62,370 nt of DNA, taken from IMG/VR virus record IMGVR_UViG_3300046457_000066, positions 1 through 62,370 of that record; one strand, 5' to 3'. The position numbers and the translations under genes are program-made. Every line of letters begins with the position of its first letter. Position 1 is the stretch's first letter. Source of the DNA: a virus. Positions 5,602 through 40,700 of this stretch are shown one piece after another. A model generated the notes under the pieces. That model did not search any database, was not told the DNA's origin, and worked only from the letters and a program-made list of their open reading frames with translations.

Positions 5602-7089
5602 ATGGCTGCTAAGCAGAAGGTCGATACGAATGCTCGTATCACCAACGCCCTTGCTCAGATCAACAAGGACAAGGATCGACTTGTGATGGTGGACCGCTAC
5701 GTTCGCGGTCTGCATCCCGCTCCTTTCATGCCTCGTAACGCGAACTCTGAGTTCAAGGAACTGGCCAAGCGGTCGATTCACAACATCATCCCTCTACTGG
5801 TTGATGCGCCTACCGATGCTCTCGCTGTAGAGGGTTATCGAAGGCCCGACGTCACCGGTAACCCGGCCGAGTGGAAGTACTGGCAGTCCAATCGAATGGA
5901 TCAGCGCCAGTCTCTCGTTCACCGGGCTGCCCTTGAGTGCGGACAGTCGTACGTCTCGGTCCGTAAGAGCCTTCTCGATCAGAAGGTTCCGGAGATTCGT
6001 ATTCATCCGGCAGTTCGTACGTTCGCCGCCTTCGATGACCCGCTCTTCGATGCCGCCCCTATGTACGCCCTCATAATCGAAGAGGAGTCCAAGGGTGAAG
6101 GCAGTCCTGGTCGAGCTACGTTCTTCGATGAGAAGTTTCAGTACGAGGTCGAGCTGTCGGAGTCTTCCTTCAAGGTAGGCAAGCGTACGGCTCACGGAAT
6201 GCCTCACTGTCCGGTGGTTCGCTTCGTTCCGAAGATGGATCTCCTGGGCCGTGCTTACGGCATCGTCGAGACTGTTGTGCAGATGCAGGACAAGCTGAAT
6301 CAGATGTACCTCAGTCTGATGATTGCCCAGCACTACACCGGCTTCGCCATTCGCACGGCTACCGGCCTCGCGCCGGTCGAGATGCTGGACGACTTGGGTA
6401 ACCCGATGTACGGCGAGGATGGACAGCCTCTGTTCATCGCCCCGGTTATCGACCCTTCGACCATGCTCATCTCTCCGAACCCCGAGACCAAGTTCGGAAC
6501 GCTGCAAGCAGCTCCTACCGAAGACTTCATGAAGGCCATTGAGATGGTGGTCCAGCACATGTGTGCTGTGACCGAGACGCCGCCTCACTACCTTCTGACG
6601 GGAACTCTCTCCAACCTGAGTGCTGACGCCCTGGCGGCGGCCGAGTCTGCCTTCTCTCGCAAGATTGACGAGATCCGGCACTCGTTCGGTGAGTCCTGGG
6701 AACTGGTCCTTCGTCTCTGTGCACTGATTGCCGGTGACCAGAAGGGCTACGAGATCGAGGATGCTCAGGTCCAGTGGGCCGACAAGGGCAACCGCTCGCT
6801 CGCTCAGGCAGTCGACGCCGGACTCAAGCTGACTCAGATGGGGGTCCCGACGACGATTGTCCTGTCCAAGATTCCTGGCTTCACCCAGCAGGACATTGAC
6901 GAGGTCAAGGCCCTCCTGGAGGACCAGGACGGGGTCAACTCGATGGCGGACAAGTTCGCTAGCCGGGTGGCCAAGAACAACGCCAAGGCCGAAGCGAATC
7001 CCGGTACTGCTGCCGTCAAGGCCCCCAAGGAGGGTGCTTCGACAGGCAAGGGTGCCGCTGATCCTTCCCTGGCAGGTAAGGCGGCCTAA
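5602..7089 (+). CDS. Portal protein
   Basis: A 495-residue protein of the SPP1 gp6-type portal family, forming the dodecameric head vertex through which DNA passes. It has a central clip/stem region (QMQDKLNQMYLSLMIAQ) and a hydrophilic C-terminal tail rich in Ala, Lys and Gly. AGGAGGAG precedes the ATG. It overlaps the next gene by one base (TAATG). Confidence 0.9.
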   Translation: MAAKQKVDTNARITNALAQINKDKDRLVMVDRYVRGLHPAPFMPRNANSEFKELAKRSIHNIIPLLVDAPTDALAVEGYRRPDVTGNPAEWKYWQSNRMDQRQSLVHRAALECGQSYVSVRKSLLDQKVPEIRIHPAVRTFAAFDDPLFDAAPMYALIIEEESKGEGSPGRATFFDEKFQYEVELSESSFKVGKRTAHGMPHCPVVRFVPKMDLLGRAYGIVETVVQMQDKLNQMYLSLMIAQHYTGFAIRTATGLAPVEMLDDLGNPMYGEDGQPLFIAPVIDPSTMLISPNPETKFGTLQAAPTEDFMKAIEMVVQHMCAVTETPPHYLLTGTLSNLSADALAAAESAFSRKIDEIRHSFGESWELVLRLCALIAGDQKGYEIEDAQVQWADKGNRSLAQAVDAGLKLTQMGVPTTIVLSKIPGFTQQDIDEVKALLEDQDGVNSMADKFASRVAKNNAKAEANPGTAAVKAPKEGASTGKGAADPSLAGKAA

Positions 7090-7997
7090 TGAGTAAGCAG
7101 ATCGATAGCGACAGGGCAGCGGAACTTTACTCCGCTGCTCTTCGCGACATCAGCGCCAACACTATCGGTCAGGCTCTCAGGTACTTTCACTCAGTCCCTC
7201 CTTCGGCACTACTCAAGGACCCTGACAAGTACTTCGATGAGTGGTTTGAGATTGTCGATGAAGCCAGGCAGCGAGCTTGGAACATCGGGCAGGCTTACTA
7301 CCGCCTCGATACGGCTATCTGGACCGGCACTACGCCGGACGACGGCACAGGTGAATTGCTCACCTTGAAGCAACTCTGGATCTACTTCCTGAAGCGAATT
7401 GGTACTAAGAAGTTTCGTAGTTCACTTCCTAACTCTGAGATCAGTCTGACTGACTCAGTGTGGGACGACTACGACCTTGACTACTCTCGACGTAATGCGG
7501 CGTCTACCTACTACACAAGAGCCGCTTATCGATTGAAGAAGTTTGAGGATGCCAGTCGCCTCAGGGACTTCGTTGATCCTGACGACTACCTCAGGCAGCT
7601 CGACAAGGTCATGCAAACCGTCACTTCGGACATGGCCCGTGAGTCACAGAGGCTCGCCCACAACGGTGGTCGTGATGCAGTCCTTCAGGGTGCCCAGAAC
7701 ACCAAGGCCAAACGAGTCGGGTATCTGCGAGTCCCGCGAGGTCTGTATACCTGCGGGTTCTGCATCATGCTCGCTTCACGTGGGGCCGTCTACAACACCA
7801 AGGCTTCGGCCGGACTCAAGGGTGTTGGTCGTGAATACCACGCTGGGTGTGACTGTGAAGTCCGAGCCATCTACGAGGGACAGGCGCTTCCTGCGGTGAA
7901 TAAGAAGGCCGAGGACGCCTGGAAGGACTTCAGTCGAACTAAGGGTGGAGGAGCCTCCGACTTCAATAAGTGGTGGGCCGAGAAGACTAATGAGTAA
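7089..7997 (+). CDS. MuF-like minor head protein
   Basis: A 302-residue protein. The C-terminal region has the MuF-family core: a conserved Arg/Asn-rich helix (HNGGRDAVLQGA), the cysteine motif TCGFCIMLASRG, and YHAGCDCEVRAIY. MuF proteins are carried with the portal and may be ejected with DNA. It lies between portal and scaffold as expected. Confidence 0.85.
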   Translation: MSKQIDSDRAAELYSAALRDISANTIGQALRYFHSVPPSALLKDPDKYFDEWFEIVDEARQRAWNIGQAYYRLDTAIWTGTTPDDGTGELLTLKQLWIYFLKRIGTKKFRSSLPNSEISLTDSVWDDYDLDYSRRNAASTYYTRAAYRLKKFEDASRLRDFVDPDDYLRQLDKVMQTVTSDMARESQRLAHNGGRDAVLQGAQNTKAKRVGYLRVPRGLYTCGFCIMLASRGAVYNTKASAGLKGVGREYHAGCDCEVRAIYEGQALPAVNKKAEDAWKDFSRTKGGGASDFNKWWAEKTNE

Positions 7998-8712: not shown

Positions 8713-9690
8713 ATGGCTAACACTATCTACAATGGTGAGAAGGTCGCGGCTGCGGCTCTTGCCAACATTGAGGCGTCTGTCGTTCTCGCTGCCACGGTTC
8801 AGAAGACCTCCGGTGCTGAGTTCGTCGGTGCTGCTGGCCACACGGTCAACATTCGTCGGCCGTCGATGCTCACCGGCTTCGAGGAGAACATTGACTGGAC
8901 TGCCGGTCAGCGTCTCGCCGGTGGCGTCATCAAGACCGAGTCTCTGAACGAGCAGGTTCTTCCGGTCGTCCTGGACACTCACGCCTACTCGGCGGTTGAC
9001 CTTTCCGACGCCGAGCTGTCCCTCTCGCTGACCAGCTACCTGTCTCAGGTCATCGTCCCGCAGACTGACGCCCTGGTGAACCGCCTTGAGCGCAAGGTTG
9101 CTGCGGCCCTGGCCTCGCTCCCGGACGACTCGCGAGGTGCGGTCGACATCTCTGCCGCCGTCGCGGCGGGTGACTATGTCAAGGCAGCCCAGCTCATCCG
9201 ATTCCGGATCAGCTTCCTGGCCTCCGACCTGACCGCGAAGAACATTCCGGTCGGCGGTCGCTTCCTGGTCCTGGGTTCCCAGATCGCCGGGTTCCTGATG
9301 AACGACCCGAACCTGACCCAGGTCGCCAACGCCGGTACCGACTCGGCTCTCCGTGAGGCCGTGATCGGCAAGCTGTACGGCTTCACGCTGGTCCAGGACA
9401 ACCGTGTCGACCCGCTCTCGATGTACGCCTACCACCCGTCGGTGATCCAGCTCGTGACTCACGCGCCGGTCGTCCCCGAGTCCGCCAAGGGTTCCAGCCA
9501 GTCTTCGGACGGCTACGCGATCCGCGCCATCAAGGACTACAACTCGTCCACGGCGTCCGAGCGTTCGTTCCTCTCGGCCTACGTCGGTGCCACTCTCGTG
9601 ACCGACCGAGTTCGGAACGCCGATGGCTCGGTCAACCCGACCCCGTCCGTCATCCGTGGCCTCAAGGTGGCTATCGACGTCACCCCTTGA
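8713..9690 (+). CDS. Major capsid protein
   Basis: A 325-residue coat protein of the P22 gp5-like group used by many actinophages: N-terminus entering directly with TIYNGEKVAAAALANIEAS, then HTVNIRRPS, and a D...YSAVDLSDAELSLSL stretch. The codons are strongly biased to C/G third positions and high-expression choices. AGGAGGAATCAGT precedes the ATG and a terminator lies just upstream. Confidence 0.9.
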   Translation: MANTIYNGEKVAAAALANIEASVVLAATVQKTSGAEFVGAAGHTVNIRRPSMLTGFEENIDWTAGQRLAGGVIKTESLNEQVLPVVLDTHAYSAVDLSDAELSLSLTSYLSQVIVPQTDALVNRLERKVAAALASLPDDSRGAVDISAAVAAGDYVKAAQLIRFRISFLASDLTAKNIPVGGRFLVLGSQIAGFLMNDPNLTQVANAGTDSALREAVIGKLYGFTLVQDNRVDPLSMYAYHPSVIQLVTHAPVVPESAKGSSQSSDGYAIRAIKDYNSSTASERSFLSAYVGATLVTDRVRNADGSVNPTPSVIRGLKVAIDVTP

Positions 9691-9845
9691 TGACCCTCTC
9701 TTCCCCGATCCTCGGTGATCTGACCACGATGAGTGCTCCGATTGCCGAGGAAGGAAGCGGAGGGGTTACACCTGCTCCCAAGACTGTACGTAAGCGTGCT
9801 CCTCGGAAGCGGACGACCAAGAAGGATGACACCAAGGAGGAGTAA
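9690..9845 (+). CDS. Small lysine-rich head protein
   Basis: A 51-residue ORF starting inside the coat stop codon (TGATG overlap). The C-terminal half is Lys/Arg/Thr rich (KTVRKRAPRKRTTKKDD). Its position between coat and connector suggests a small capsid-associated or head-completion protein. Function not known. Confidence 0.7.
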   Translation: MTLSSPILGDLTTMSAPIAEEGSGGVTPAPKTVRKRAPRKRTTKKDDTKEE

Positions 9846-10355
9846 TTGATTTGCGACCCGATCGGCACTGTTGCCGAGCTTGAGGCGCGAGTCGGACGAT
9901 CCTTTGTTACGGACGAAGAAAAGGGCATGGCGGTGGCAGCTCTTGAAGATGCTGCCGCCATTGCCCGTGTCTACGGCAATCCCTACTGGGGCTGCTACGC
10001 GGTCAGCACGATGTCTACTGCTGAACCTCTGGTGGTCAACGGGGTTGCCGTCCGTTCTACAGGAATGAACGTTCCTGCTGGAGTCAAGGCCGTAGTACTC
10101 GCAATGGCCGCTAGAGCCATCCGCAACCCGGACGGTTTCGTTTCTGAGACTGCCGGTGAATACACCTACCGGTACAGCGAGAACACGGCCAATGGCATCT
10201 CCCCTTCACAGGGTGAGATCACCATGCTTGAGAAGCTGGCACAGAAGGACAAGATCCGCACTGTTGCATTCGAGCGGGCTATCAAGGTTGCTCGCAGTCG
10301 CGAGTACCCGTACGAGGAGAATGGCAATGTCGTCTGGGATGAGAGTTCCGGATGA
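9846..10355 (+). CDS. Head-tail connector (adaptor)
   Basis: A 169-residue protein starting at TTG immediately after the TAA of the previous gene. It begins with a helical pair (TVAELEARVGRSFVTDEEKGMAVAALEDAAAIARVYG) as in the gp15/gp6-type adaptor family that docks on the portal, and ends with a basic tail. Order and size match the first connector of siphoviruses. Confidence 0.8.
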   Translation: MICDPIGTVAELEARVGRSFVTDEEKGMAVAALEDAAAIARVYGNPYWGCYAVSTMSTAEPLVVNGVAVRSTGMNVPAGVKAVVLAMAARAIRNPDGFVSETAGEYTYRYSENTANGISPSQGEITMLEKLAQKDKIRTVAFERAIKVARSREYPYEENGNVVWDESSG

Positions 10356-10678
10356 GTATTTGGAATCGTGCTCCTGTTGAAGCAGTCCTCTATGAGAGGG
10401 CTGAAGTCGATGATGGCTATGGCGGAACCGTTCCTGGTCTCGGCCCTGGCCATCCTCTCAAGGTTTTCGCACAGCAGATCTCAGACGGAACGGGGTCCGA
10501 TGACAACTGGGCCGCCCCCGTCATGATGAAGATCTACTCAAAGACCAATCCTTGTGACCGATGGTCCGAGGTTCATATGGATGGCGATGTCTGGACGGTT
10601 GTTCAGCAGCCTAAGTGGCGTCGGAACTCTCCGAGAACCACCCACTACGTTGCCACGATCGAAAAGAGGGGTGGCTGA
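10352..10678 (+). CDS. Head-tail stopper
   Basis: A 108-residue beta-rich protein (DGYGGTVPGLG, HMDGDVWTVVQQPKWRR) of the size and position of head-closure (stopper) proteins that plug the connector after packaging. It overlaps both neighbours by 1-4 bases, indicating translational coupling. Confidence 0.75.
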   Translation: MSIWNRAPVEAVLYERAEVDDGYGGTVPGLGPGHPLKVFAQQISDGTGSDDNWAAPVMMKIYSKTNPCDRWSEVHMDGDVWTVVQQPKWRRNSPRTTHYVATIEKRGG

Positions 10679-24868: not shown

Positions 24869-25126
24869 ATGAACTGGATTGAAGTTTTTTTGGGAGGAGG
24901 AGCCGGTGCAGTAATTACCGGCCTTGGGGCTCTATACAAGTCCGTAAAGGATGAGTCCACAAAGGAGAGATCAGAGGTACTTGAGTGGAACGACCGCCTT
25001 GAGCACAAGGTGAACGCACTCATGGAGAGCAATGACCTACTGGTTCGGGAAGTCCATGGACTGAGAACCCGCGTGTTCGATCTGGAGCTGTTCATCCGTA
25101 AGCACGATCTTGAGCCGCCCGAGTAA
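24869..25126 (+). CDS. Membrane protein with coiled coil
   Basis: An 85-residue protein with GGAGATCT before the ATG. Residues 6-23 (VFLGGGAGAVITGLGALY) form one membrane segment; the rest is a charged coiled coil. The layout resembles small actinophage membrane proteins near lysis genes (DUF2746-like), possibly a spanin or holin partner. Function is inferred from position and shape only. Confidence 0.7.
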   Translation: MNWIEVFLGGGAGAVITGLGALYKSVKDESTKERSEVLEWNDRLEHKVNALMESNDLLVREVHGLRTRVFDLELFIRKHDLEPPE

Positions 25127-25183: not shown

Positions 25184-25207
25184 GGTGTGTTCGAGAAAGG
25201 AATATGT

Positions 25208-26677
25208 ATGACTAACGGTGTCAAGGAACTCATAGCACTAGCGGTGTCTCAGGTGGGCATCAAGGAGAAGTACTCCAATGGCCACTGGGTCAATAACTCC
25301 AAGTACAACCAGTGGTTCGGACGCATTCCGGGTTACGGCGAGGACGGCTACGGCTATCCCTGGTGTGCTGCATTTCAGTCGTGGCTTCTCGACAAGACCG
25401 GCCTGAAGGCTCTAGGTCCTCGAACTGCCTCTTGCCTGGCTACGGTGGCGTGGTTCAAGGCTCGCAAGCGATGGTCTGCCTATCCCGCTCTGGGAGCACA
25501 AATTCTCTTCGGTCCCGGAGGCGGAACTCACGTCGGTCTCGTAGTCGGATACGACCGGAGCTACGTCTACACCGTGGAAGGAAATACCAACGTCTCGGGT
25601 GGGGCAGAAGGAGATGGAGTCTGGCGTAAGACTCGGGTACGTCGAGATACAAACGTCTACGGCTACGGGTATCCGGACTACTCTGGTGGGTCCCTCTCTG
25701 CTGATCCTGATGCCAGTAAGTTCGGCTACAAGTACAAGGAAGTCGCCACTGTTGCCGACCTGACTCCGAAGGCTACTGCCCCGGCTAAGACTCGGGTTGT
25801 AACCGTCAAGGCTGGCCAGACTCTCAGCGCGATTGCTGTTGCGGCTGGAATCACTCTCGCCACCCTTCTCAGTCTGAACACTGGGATCAAGGACCCCGAC
25901 AAGGTCCAGGCCGGGGACAAGGTCACTCTTCCGGCCGCTGTCCCTTCTACTCCGAAGGTGACCACTACTCCCACTCCTAAGGTCACACCCAAGCCGACTG
26001 TAAAGCCGAAGCCGAAGCCGACCAAGACCACCCCCAAGTTCACTGCTTTCCCTGGGGCTAAGTACTTCGGTCCCGGCAAGAGCAACAAGTATGTCACTCA
26101 GCTCGGTACCGCACTGATCAAGCACGGCTACAAGGACTTCTACAAGGTCGGGGCCGGGCCCAAGTGGTCTGAGTCTGACCGGCAGGCCGTTCAGGCTTTC
26201 CAGCGTTCTCAGGGATGGTCTGGCACCTCTGCCGACGGTATCCCCGGTAAGGAGACCTGGGATCGACTGATCACCGGCAAGAACATTCAGCCCCGAGTGA
26301 AGGCAGTTCGGGCTACGAGGATGAGTGCCTCTACCGGAAGGGCTTCTCTCACCTACTCGAACAACCTCGATGGGTGGATTCGTGAAGCTCTCGTCGTCAT
26401 GAAGGCTCACGGGATTCCCGGTACCTACGAAGGTATCCACCGGAACATCATCCGGGAGTCTGGTGGCAATCCTCGGATCTGTAACACCACTGACATCAAC
26501 GCTCAGAGGGGAACGCCTAGTTGCGGTCTTCTCCAGACCATCGCCCCGACGTTCAAGGCTTATCACGTCTCGGGAACTTCCTGGGATGTGTTCGACCCGG
26601 TAGCGAACATCGCCGCCGCTTGTAACTACGCCGCTCACAACTACGGGTCTATCGACAACGTGAACGGCCCTTACTAA
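25208..26677 (+). CDS. Modular endolysin (CHAP + LysM + PG-binding + SLT)
   Basis: A 489-residue enzyme; AAAGGA lies 6 nt before this ATG, preferred over an in-frame upstream codon. Order: a CHAP-type amidase/peptidase domain (YPWCAAFQSW with catalytic Cys, later GGTHVGLVVGY with His), LysM (VVTVKAGQTLSAIAVAAG), a Pro/Thr/Lys linker, a peptidoglycan-binding-1 domain (DRQAVQAFQRSQGW), and a lytic transglycosylase-like domain (IIRESGGNP, CGLLQTI). Two catalytic domains and two binding domains are unusual. Confidence 0.9.
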   Translation: MTNGVKELIALAVSQVGIKEKYSNGHWVNNSKYNQWFGRIPGYGEDGYGYPWCAAFQSWLLDKTGLKALGPRTASCLATVAWFKARKRWSAYPALGAQILFGPGGGTHVGLVVGYDRSYVYTVEGNTNVSGGAEGDGVWRKTRVRRDTNVYGYGYPDYSGGSLSADPDASKFGYKYKEVATVADLTPKATAPAKTRVVTVKAGQTLSAIAVAAGITLATLLSLNTGIKDPDKVQAGDKVTLPAAVPSTPKVTTTPTPKVTPKPTVKPKPKPTKTTPKFTAFPGAKYFGPGKSNKYVTQLGTALIKHGYKDFYKVGAGPKWSESDRQAVQAFQRSQGWSGTSADGIPGKETWDRLITGKNIQPRVKAVRATRMSASTGRASLTYSNNLDGWIREALVVMKAHGIPGTYEGIHRNIIRESGGNPRICNTTDINAQRGTPSCGLLQTIAPTFKAYHVSGTSWDVFDPVANIAAACNYAAHNYGSIDNVNGPY

Positions 26678-26690
26678 AAAGGAGATCATC

Positions 26691-26990
26691 ATGTCTGTTC
26701 TTAACTGGGTCAAGAAGAACCCCACTCTCGTCTACGCTGTCGCTGCTTCTCTTGTTCCCCTTGTCGCTTCGTTCGGTCTCCACTTCGACCAGGAACGAGT
26801 TCTCGGCATCGTGTCGGCCGCCCTGACCCTGGTTGCCGGTGGCTTCGTTCGTCGGTCGAGCCTGAAGGCTACGGCTGAGGCCCTGAAGAGGGTTCCTGCG
26901 GGCTATCTCAAGCTCTCCGACCTCTTCCCCCAGGCCGAGTACGGGACGCCGAACAACTACCTGTCCGAGGACGCCGAGGAGACTAAGTGA
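26691..26990 (+). CDS. Holin candidate
   Basis: A 99-residue protein between endolysin and protease. Two hydrophobic segments (LVYAVAASLVPLVASFGL and VLGIVSAALTLVAGGFV) are followed by a charged tail. Size, topology and position fit a class II-like holin that opens the membrane for the endolysin. AAAAAGGAG precedes the ATG. Confidence 0.75.
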   Translation: MSVLNWVKKNPTLVYAVAASLVPLVASFGLHFDQERVLGIVSAALTLVAGGFVRRSSLKATAEALKRVPAGYLKLSDLFPQAEYGTPNNYLSEDAEETK

Positions 26991-27838
26991 GGAAGCTTGC
27001 TGTGGGGGCCGCTGGCGTTGTGCTGGCGGCCTCCGGGCTCGTAGCCCAGTCCATCCCCTCCGAGGCCCCTGACGCGTCCGTGAAGGACGCTCGCAAGGTG
27101 CTGAAGCAAGAGGCAGCCATCCCCGGTACGTCGTGGTCTGTGGACCCTGAGACAGACAAGCTCGTCGTCACGGCCGACAAGACAGTCAAGGGTGATGACC
27201 TCGATCAGCTCAAGGACGTCGTAGACGAGCTGGGGGACAACGTCGAGCTAGAGCAGTCCAAGACTGTCATTCAGCCGTACGCCGTTGGTGGTGACGCTAT
27301 CTACGCCTCGGAGCGATGTTCGGCCGGACTCAACGTCCTCATGGCCGGTAACCCGTTCCTCCTGACGGCAGGCCACTGCGGTAAGACCGGAAGCCTCTGG
27401 AGCGATAAGAAGGGACTCACGGTCGGAACCATGGTCGAGAGTGTCTTCCCTGTCGATGACTATGCACTCATCAAGTACGAGGATTCCACTACCCCTGAAA
27501 GTGCAGTGAACCTGTACGAGGGGGTCAACAAGGTCTTCACGGTCGGCACTCCCACTGAAGGAATGCAGGTCGAGCGAAGCGGTTCAACGACCGGTGTTCA
27601 GCGAGGCCGCATCACTGGTCTCAATGCCACGGTGAACTACGGCAACGGTATCTCCGTTGACGGGCTCATTCAGACTGATGTCTGTGCTGAACCTGGGGAC
27701 AGTGGTGGTCCTCTCTTCTCGGGAGGTATGGCACTCGGTCTCCTGTCTGGTGGTTATGGCAACTGCAAGACTGGTGGCGCTACCTACTACCAGTCCCTCA
27801 ACGAGGTGTTCAGTAAGTACAACCTGACGCTCCCGTAA
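26987..27838 (+). CDS. Secreted streptogrisin-like S1 serine protease
   Basis: A 283-residue protein with a signal peptide (residues 1-~21), a short pro-region (SWSVDPETDKLVVTADKTV) and a chymotrypsin-fold domain. The catalytic triad is visible: H130 in LTAGHCG, D158 in VDDYALIKY, S239 in EPGDSGGPL. Cysteines 111 and 131 match the His-loop disulfide of streptogrisins. GTG start overlaps the holin TGA (GTGA), so it is co-translated with the lysis genes. Probably host-derived; may help lysis, prey on surface proteins, or act from the prophage. Confidence 0.88.
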   Translation: MRKLAVGAAGVVLAASGLVAQSIPSEAPDASVKDARKVLKQEAAIPGTSWSVDPETDKLVVTADKTVKGDDLDQLKDVVDELGDNVELEQSKTVIQPYAVGGDAIYASERCSAGLNVLMAGNPFLLTAGHCGKTGSLWSDKKGLTVGTMVESVFPVDDYALIKYEDSTTPESAVNLYEGVNKVFTVGTPTEGMQVERSGSTTGVQRGRITGLNATVNYGNGISVDGLIQTDVCAEPGDSGGPLFSGGMALGLLSGGYGNCKTGGATYYQSLNEVFSKYNLTLP

Positions 27839-27855: not shown

Positions 27856-28014
27856 ATGGAATTCACAGGAGATATCCAGGACATCGAGGTTCGGTATACC
27901 TGCCGGGCATGCCTCGAAGACTTCACGAACACATTTACGCCTGGGAAAGCCATCCCCGAACAAGTTGTGCACGAGGAGTGCCCAGAGGACCCGTCCTGGC
28001 AAACCAGTAAGTAA
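27856..28014 (+). CDS. Small zinc-finger-like protein
   Basis: A 52-residue acidic ORF with CRAC near residue 16 and a further Cys near 42. No ribosome site is present, but a -10 box sits at leaderless spacing. It ends the lysis region just before a two-way terminator. Function unknown. Confidence 0.6.
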   Translation: MEFTGDIQDIEVRYTCRACLEDFTNTFTPGKAIPEQVVHEECPEDPSWQTSK

Positions 28015-28028
28015 CTGAAGCACAAGAA

Positions 28029-28077
28029 AGCCCCCGCCTTCCCGGATGATCTCCAGGAGGACGGGGGCCTTTTCTTT
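28029..28077. terminator. Bidirectional terminator
   Basis: GCCCCCG (28030-28036) pairs with CGGGGGC (28062-28068), with A-rich and T-rich flanks on both sides, separating the convergent (+) lysis genes and (-) operon. Confidence 0.8.
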
Positions 28078-28078
28078 G

Positions 28079-28399
28079 TTAGGCAGTTCGTTCGATCAGG
28101 AACGGCGTCTTCTCATTGTTTCCCCTGACTCCGGAAACCGACTGCCGGGAGAAGATGTGATCCAACACGATCTCTACGGCCAATCCCTTACGAGGACCCT
28201 TGCACTTGATGAGAGTGCTGTCGGCCGGGCAACCGCACTCCGGATTGCAGTTCATCATCTTGTCCAGAGTTACAGCGGTTCCGATGTCGACCGAGTCTCG
28301 CCACTCTTCGATGTGAGCAATGACGGCTTTATCGATGTCCGGACGCGTTTCGTATATGTCCTGAGTGGTCACCGTGATGTGAGCCTGGAACTGATTCAT
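28079..28399 (-). CDS. Hypothetical protein with Cys cluster
   Basis: A 106-residue protein. N-terminal beta segment QAHITVTTQDIYE, then a helix and a CNPECGCP cysteine cluster that could bind a metal. It overlaps the upstream gene by four bases (ATGA) and is the last gene of the 28-32 kb leftward operon. No family recognised. Confidence 0.65.
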   Translation of the reverse strand: MNQFQAHITVTTQDIYETRPDIDKAVIAHIEEWRDSVDIGTAVTLDKMMNCNPECGCPADSTLIKCKGPRKGLAVEIVLDHIFSRQSVSGVRGNNEKTPFLIERTA

Positions 28400-32217: not shown

Positions 32218-33138
32218 CTAGGTCGCTTCTGGGCCAGGCTCCGGGGTGGGCTCCTCGCTCGTCGCTTCCGGCGTCGGCTCCTCCTGGGGGACATCCCGGG
32301 GAGCTGCCTCGGTGAGAACGTCGGCGGCCTGGGCTGACTCCACTGTCTGTTCGGTCAGTTCCTCGGTGACCTCGGCGGCCTTCTCAGGCTCGGTGATCAC
32401 TGCCGTCTCGGTGACCGACTCGTGGGTCTCAGGGTTGGTCACGGTGACCTCGACCTTGGCCGGTTCCTCGGGTGTTGCATTGGTCGGGTCCTCGACCACT
32501 GCTGTGACGTTGACCAAGATCGGCTCCTCGTAGGCGACAAGGGTAAGTTCGCTGTCCGCCTTGGGTCCGGGCTGAGCCAAGACCGTGCCGGATATGACGG
32601 CTCGTCCCTGTGCGTCCATGTGAACCTTGACGACCGTGCCGGGGGTCTTGCGCTCCTCGGCCCTGGCCACGATCGGGAGCACCCAGTTAGGGACCTGTTC
32701 GAGGCCGGGGACTATCTCTTCCAGTCCTTCTCGGAGCTGGGACTTCGGAGTCTCAGACGGCGACGGCTTGGGGGTCTCGTCGTCGTCTGTCAGGAAGTCT
32801 GAGACGGCGTCGGCGATGCCACTGAAGAGGCCGCCATCGTCGTCCTCGTCCTTGCCCTTGTCCTGTTCCGGCTTGGGCCACAGTGAGGGACTCAGGGGGA
32901 CCATCGGAACCTGTGGGGCTACCCAGCCGCCGTACGGTCTGATGTTGTTGGGGCCTTGGAAGGTCCCTGGAACATCTGGGTTGGGGTAGGGGGTCATTCC
33001 GGGCTTGGAAGACTCGTGAGAAGCGTCGTCCTTAGTCAGCCGGGTTCCGGCGCTGAGTTCGATCGCTCCCATCGAGACCAGGAGCAGGCATCCGAAGACG
33101 CCTGCCGAAATGAGCACCGGTGTGGGGGGTCTACGCAC
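32218..33138 (-). CDS. Membrane-anchored, Pro/Glu-rich surface protein
   Basis: A 306-residue protein. RRPPTPVLISAGVFGCLLLVSMGAIEL is a short cytoplasmic end plus one membrane segment. The rest would be outside the cell: a Pro-rich spacer (50-95), an acidic stretch, a possible beta domain (165-215) and a C-terminal Glu/Pro/Thr-rich tail (PTPEATSEEPTPEPGPE). GTG start with AAGGA upstream. It has its own terminator and lies beside the integrase, the place for lysogenic-conversion genes. Superinfection exclusion is possible. Confidence 0.7.
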   Translation of the reverse strand: MRRPPTPVLISAGVFGCLLLVSMGAIELSAGTRLTKDDASHESSKPGMTPYPNPDVPGTFQGPNNIRPYGGWVAPQVPMVPLSPSLWPKPEQDKGKDEDDDGGLFSGIADAVSDFLTDDDETPKPSPSETPKSQLREGLEEIVPGLEQVPNWVLPIVARAEERKTPGTVVKVHMDAQGRAVISGTVLAQPGPKADSELTLVAYEEPILVNVTAVVEDPTNATPEEPAKVEVTVTNPETHESVTETAVITEPEKAAEVTEELTEQTVESAQAADVLTEAAPRDVPQEEPTPEATSEEPTPEPGPEAT

Positions 33139-40285: not shown

Positions 40286-40486
40286 CTAGAACGGTGGCTC
40301 GAACGCCTGCTTCGGTACCTCGGTCTCTGTCAGCAGCCACAGCAGGCTCCCGTAAAACAGGTAGCCGGTCGCTCCGTCGATGTCGTACACCACCACGTAC
40401 TTGTCGTGGAAGACGACCTCGCCAACGCTCGCAAACTCCTCACCGTTGTTGAACTTGGCCGTAACACGGGTCGTAACTTCACTCAT
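40286..40486 (-). CDS. Small hypothetical protein
   Basis: A 66-residue beta-rich protein (RVTAKFNNGEEFASVGEVVF; YVVVYDIDGATGYLFYG). The ATG overlaps the upstream TGA (ATGA). Unknown function. Confidence 0.65.
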   Translation of the reverse strand: MSEVTTRVTAKFNNGEEFASVGEVVFHDKYVVVYDIDGATGYLFYGSLLWLLTETEVPKQAFEPPF

Positions 40487-40700
40487 CCTCGGACGAACCC
40501 CCAAGGACCAGATCCAGGTACACCAGCGTCAGATCCCCGGCCAGTAGTTCGGGCAGGCCGATGCCGACAGCGTGTCCGAAGATCTCTGCCGCAGAATCAA
40601 CAGCCTTCTTGAACGTCTCAGCGGTCTCGGCGAGAGAGACGACGATCGGGTCAAACGAACCGTTCATGATGCTCTCAAACTCGTTCTCTTCCATACTCAC
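40479..40700 (-). CDS. Small hypothetical protein
   Basis: A 73-residue helical acidic protein (AETAETFKKAVDSAAEIFGH). GTG at 40700 overlaps the upstream TGA; an ATG two codons later is an alternative. Part of a tightly overlapping run of small genes. Confidence 0.65.
   Translation of the reverse strand: MSMEENEFESIMNGSFDPIVVSLAETAETFKKAVDSAAEIFGHAVGIGLPELLAGDLTLVYLDLVLGGSSEDE

Follow-up and report, generated by a model that had tools for sequence, protein, structure and literature searches.

Streptogrisins, which we take to be MEROPS S1E, include SGPA, SGPB and the Streptomyces fradiae serine proteinase 2sfa. These enzymes have their pre-pro-mature anatomy, catalytic triad, two disulfides and fold in common with the protease described here, which in contrast is encoded by a virus, has a GC3 of 0.70 and carries the substitutions T253L, S257Y and P270S. 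The long-pro streptogrisins of Streptomyces share its mature domain and the C-terminal part of its pro-region, but have about 75 more N-terminal pro-region residues. A secreted actinobacterial protease from Salinispora mooreana with antiphage activity resembles it by description, including the GDSGGP motif, but is a bacterial gene located near defence systems and has a Tat signal (PMC13175485). Among actinophages, the peptidase S1 of Gordonia phage Yvonnetastic (gene 59) has an S1-like fold and follows the structural gene block; it differs in its length of 195 aa, its 19% identity in the structural match and its distance of about 8 kb from the main lysis genes. Mycobacteriophage LysB is likewise an additional lysis-module hydrolase that acts on the envelope, but it is an esterase rather than a proteolytic enzyme, and Streptomyces lacks the layer on which it acts. 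We know of no described lysis scheme that includes a protease for a protein layer outside the wall.

The window, meaning the whole stretch of DNA that we analysed, is the entire IMG/VR virus record IMGVR_UViG_3300046457_000066 (62,370 nt). It encodes siphovirus proteins (terminase, portal, capsid, tape measure and tail) as well as a serine integrase, a DNA polymerase, a ribonucleotide reductase and four tRNAs. Since the portal and capsid are nearest to those of Streptomyces phages such as Shady and Shaeky (about 41-42% identity), and the best endolysin matches are likewise from Streptomyces phages, we infer that the host is Streptomyces or a near relative. The phage is temperate, as indicated by the serine integrase and by a near-identical provirus.

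We observed that the open reading frame at 26987-27838 (+ strand) encodes a streptogrisin-type preproprotease of 283 aa, with a GTG start, 283 codons and a TAA stop. No longer start is possible because an in-frame TAA lies directly 5' of the GTG, at 26984-26986. Two Pfam families scored above the cut-off, namely Pro_Al_protease (4.8e-10, residues 34-80) followed by Trypsin (5.3e-10), and a phmmer search against the PDB returned 2sfa at 4.9e-49 and SGPA and SGPB at about 1e-44. The family match is far beyond chance. Identity to the streptogrisin chains in the PDB was 46-48%. In alignments with these chains and with 31 Streptomycetaceae proteins, H130, D158 and S239 fell in invariant columns, as did the cysteines of both disulfides (C111/C131 and C233/C260), and the triad motifs of streptogrisins (TAGHC, DY and GDSGG) are all present. 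The corresponding codons are at 27374-27376 for His130, 27458-27460 for Asp158 and 27701-27703 for Ser239, the last within CAEPGDSGGP. In the AlphaFold model (mean pLDDT 79.7) the pro-domain is folded and the mature domain forms two barrels; for the latter, the top solved structures in Foldseek were 2sfa, 3sgb (SGPB) and 2sga (SGPA), with a TM-score to the target of 0.91-0.92.

The N-terminus is hydrophobic over residues 4-20 by hydropathy, consistent with a signal peptide. We place this putative signal peptide at about residues 1-21 (26987-27049), a segment of low pLDDT for which the cleavage site is an estimate. It is followed by the pro-region, residues 22-98 (27050-27280), with an alpha-lytic-type pro-domain (PF02983) modelled as helix-strands-helix-strand at residues 30-90. 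The mature S1 protease domain, delimited by phmmer, alignments and Foldseek, covers residues 99-283 (27281-27835), and alignment of the mature PDB chains makes autocleavage at Y98|A99 likely. The triad motifs, pro-domain, two disulfides and fold together identify the predicted protein as a streptogrisin of the S1 alpha-lytic/streptogrisin group, and apparently a complete and catalytically competent one. The signal-like N-terminus and the Tyr98 at the expected cut predict secretion, self-activation and cleavage after large hydrophobic residues. The earlier note had described a complete zymogen here, with signal peptide, pro-region and intact triad, and Pfam, phmmer, alignments and hydropathy all bear this out.

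We then compared the protease with its chromosomal relatives. As the earlier note had supposed, the family is typical of Streptomyces: streptogrisins occurred in 296 of 296 genomes searched, with one to eight scored homologues each. None of these was more than 56% identical to the phage protease, and the closest were long-pro streptogrisins at 54-56%. Ahead of the equivalent of residue 29, the phage protein has 28 residues, compared with a median of 103 in the closest host kin. It thus lacks about 75 N-terminal pro-region residues of the long-pro enzymes and is not of long-pro length. A phylogeny against host proteases, put forward as a check in the earlier note, gave a partial answer. In a tree of 59 rows the phage protein stood beside the long-pro enzymes with a support of 96/65 and a branch length of 1.2, but the short-pro SGPA/B-like clade is also a tenable place for it (AU p 0.20, not rejected).

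The GC3 of the protease gene (0.70) lies within the range of the other phage genes (0.64-0.81) and below that of host streptogrisins (mean 0.90, minimum 0.76). This argues against both a recent capture and a chimeric join, and together with the limited identity to the Streptomyces copies it indicates that the gene belongs to the phage. An assembly chimera was ruled out by the phage-like GC3, the overlap with the holin gene and the absence of a close host match. When the phage DNA was searched in 393 Streptomyces genomes, the only matches lay inside the protease region and had about 65% DNA identity, the level that chromosomal streptogrisins should give. The phage DNA was not found in a plasmid search, and streptogrisins on Streptomyces plasmids matched at best at 49%. 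We take the gene to be phage-resident and descended from a chromosomal Streptomyces enzyme.

Despite the very long end branch, the protein retains 39 of 42 near-invariant family positions (conservation of 99.5% or more across the host rows), a pattern consistent with an ancient capture that was kept for its activity. The altered near-invariant residues are T253L and S257Y, and also P270S. Residues 253 and 257 presumably correspond to positions 213 and 217 in chymotrypsin numbering, near the S1/S3 cleft, and their replacement suggests an altered specificity.

Next, we set out the gene order around the protease, in which the genes given up to the terminator are on the + strand. A small membrane-associated protein of 85 aa (24869-25126), in the same position as the membrane/DUF2746 proteins of phages Ponzi and Alvy, precedes the endolysin (25187-26677). 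By Pfam, PHROGs and NCBIfam, the endolysin combines CHAP, LysM, PG-binding and a C-terminal SLT transglycosylase; this last domain resembles those of tape-measure proteins, and its fusion with CHAP, LysM and PG-binding is unusual. The holin (26691-26990) is a protein of 99 aa with two hydrophobic segments, identified by a PHROG holin match (0.0035), by hydropathy and by its likeness to an open reading frame in the holin place of the IMG/VR record L165 (52% over 62 aa). The protease follows, and a possible 52-aa open reading frame with a CxxC motif, putative and read off the sequence, closes the operon at 27856-28014. A strong terminator hairpin at about 28024-28079 (fold -33.5 kcal/mol, z -4.1; also a scan hit) lies between convergent gene blocks and sets the lysis operon apart from the convergent early genes.

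There is neither a terminator nor room for one among the endolysin, holin and protease genes. A promoter scan for sigma70-like sites, which cover part of the Streptomyces promoter types, returned no + strand site in these three genes or near the protease. The arrangement indicates that the protease is co-operonic with the endolysin and holin and that no other large gene follows it in the late lysis operon. A Shine-Dalgarno motif, GAGGAG (26976-26981), lies within the holin gene five bases ahead of the protease start, and the two genes overlap by four bases, GTGA (26987-26990), in which the protease GTG occupies 26987-26989 and the holin TGA 26988-26990. The earlier note had called the protease translationally coupled to the holin. 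The overlap and the ribosome-binding motif are there as claimed, and from them coupling may be inferred. The overlap alone is not special: a comparable one joins the portal stop and the next ATG at 7089. This is ordinary phage packing, yet it links expression of the protease to the lysis genes.

In the related phages Ponzi, Alvy and Shady the holin ends the lysis genes or precedes other genes, none of them annotated as a protease, and tblastn found no streptogrisin in these three records. L165, which has the 52%-identical holin segment in common with our phage, as well as a DUF3987 protein at 48%, has a convergent DUF3987 gene directly after the holin. With this slot unoccupied in Ponzi, Shady, Alvy and L165, we conclude that the protease was inserted where the late operon ends, as an addition to a cassette that works.

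The suspicion that this family is out of place in a phage lysis cassette was well founded. A tblastn search (E up to 10) of 50,697 phage records returned no streptogrisin and nothing better than E 0.2, and motif-based, alignment-based and single-protein scans of IMG/VR, which look for exact matches to a pattern and could overlook divergent copies, found no other phage streptogrisin. The E 0.2 match, in Mycobacterium phage Adler (L166, 4860-5558), is a hypothetical protein that weakly resembles S1 proteases and lies away from the annotated lysis genes. In IMG/VR, L003 and L169 encode different trypsin-fold proteins (V8/HtrA-like), and L084 and L085 are chance pattern matches on the wrong strand. 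L002 (41% identity) has a streptogrisin with a long pro-region at the contig end, past a serine integrase. There, at 8817-10378 of this provirus end, it accompanies a protein that, judged by eye, is sphingomyelinase/DNase-I-like, and the segment is probably host flank at the attachment site. A literature search on phage and streptogrisin found nothing relevant. The gene was thus seen in one record only. It is unique in the data searched: enzyme family and gene slot are both known, and their combination was not found elsewhere.

We regard the identity of the streptogrisin zymogen and its place in the late operon as near certain. As to its role, our preferred explanation is that the host-derived protease is exported late and digests host-surface proteins at release. 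The protease would be translated along with the holin late in infection and exported by the Sec route before the holin fires; the pro-domain would then fold it outside the membrane, and a cut after Tyr98 would mature it. Once the endolysin opens the wall, the protease would act as an accessory to it, digesting proteins on and around the host hyphae and easing detachment of virions from wall, sheath and debris. Export, late timing and self-maturation are here read from the anatomy of the gene and its product, and on this reading the protease probably acts outside the cell, on host surface proteins at release. The specific target is our guess, the one that best fits the operon, to which we commit under uncertainty. 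Mycobacteriophage LysB offers a precedent for a third, envelope-specific lysis enzyme (PMC8309991). Two points weigh against the proposal: related phages lyse without such a protease, and a broad protease freed with the progeny would put the phage at risk because secreted actinobacterial proteases can also harm virions (PMC13175485). We favour the explanation as a whole tentatively, at somewhat less than an even chance.

Several other roles have to be weighed against release. The protease might be cargo, a secreted enzyme that aids the lysogen in nutrition or development. Exotoxin and enzyme genes adjoin lysis cassettes in streptococcal and staphylococcal prophages, and here the phage is temperate and the late-operon end is a usual moron slot. 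However, Streptomyces already has its own streptogrisins, which makes the benefit uncertain, and the overlap of the protease start with the holin stop argues against expression in quiet lysogens. Expression by the lysogen, which the earlier note had entertained, finds no support in this anatomy, as the sigma70-like scan also gave no promoter-like site in front and the gene is located before the operon terminator; we consider such a role unlikely. The gene could also be a near-neutral passenger retained by chance, and it is indeed missing from related phages. But the phage-matching GC3 signals a long residence, over which the triad, the two disulfides and 39 of the 42 near-invariant positions have stayed intact. 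This makes a passenger very unlikely, and the same features speak for the release explanation as signs of maintenance under constraint. Even less probable is a processing enzyme that would trim tail fibres, the multidomain endolysin or other phage proteins once they are released. Its gene does share a late block with the endolysin and tail genes, but the signal peptide would remove it from intracellular assembly, and a separate protease (7089-7997) serves head maturation.

A serious rival is a weapon against competitors: in the surroundings of the lysing mycelium or lysogen, the exported enzyme would cleave the host receptor, or the tail or other surface proteins of rival virions, and the phage's own particles would be resistant. 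We take it seriously because the Salinispora protease, secreted and of the GDSGGP type, lowers the titre of two siphophages when present in S. coelicolor; the effect is extracellular and active-site-dependent, and escapers mutate a tail-associated protein (PMC13175485). The changes at the two cleft positions, T253L and S257Y, would also suit such a use. On the other hand, the authors of that study say that the effect may be a side effect (PMC13175485), the protease matched none of the families in the PADLOC models, and its gene lies in the lysis operon rather than in a lysogeny-expressed module. We judge this rival unlikely. A form of it in which the phage deploys the host-derived protease at lysis, so that rival virions, or the receptors of nearby hyphae, are destroyed and its own particles are resistant, is a shade more doubtful. 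If true, that form would amount to a virus-encoded, extracellular form of superinfection control.

If late export holds, a protease directed at the protein layer beyond the wall can be part of the lysis module in phages whose hosts are filamentous Gram-positive bacteria. It would also mean that virus pipelines can hide host-derived cargo, as the near-identical IMG/VR provirus was cut just before the holin and protease. This provirus, G301 (IMGVR_UViG_2634166429_000004), matches the window mostly at 97-100% DNA identity with a few divergent blocks, and its record name, which we read as that of an isolate genome, supports a temperate life. The record runs exactly to the stop codon of the endolysin (26677) and starts at the stop of the open reading frame at 40286-40504. 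Evidently it was trimmed at gene boundaries, with loss of the polA, integrase, holin and protease region, and the protease, if in that provirus, falls in the trimmed-off part. Because of this trimming, host-like provirus cargo is likely under-counted in IMG/VR.

G301 also joins the end and start of the window through about 1.33 kb absent from it (L139, 4256-5582). The window therefore represents almost the whole of a circularly permuted genome of about 63.7 kb. Mosaic blocks between the two lie at 47.6-48.8 kb and 57-59.3 kb, with about 74-92% identity or no match. Near the integrase, at 32218-33138 (- strand), we observed a 306-aa protein without a family match in Pfam or NCBIfam. With its hydrophobic N-terminus and Pro/Glu-rich tail, it is possibly a second exported or anchored cargo protein.
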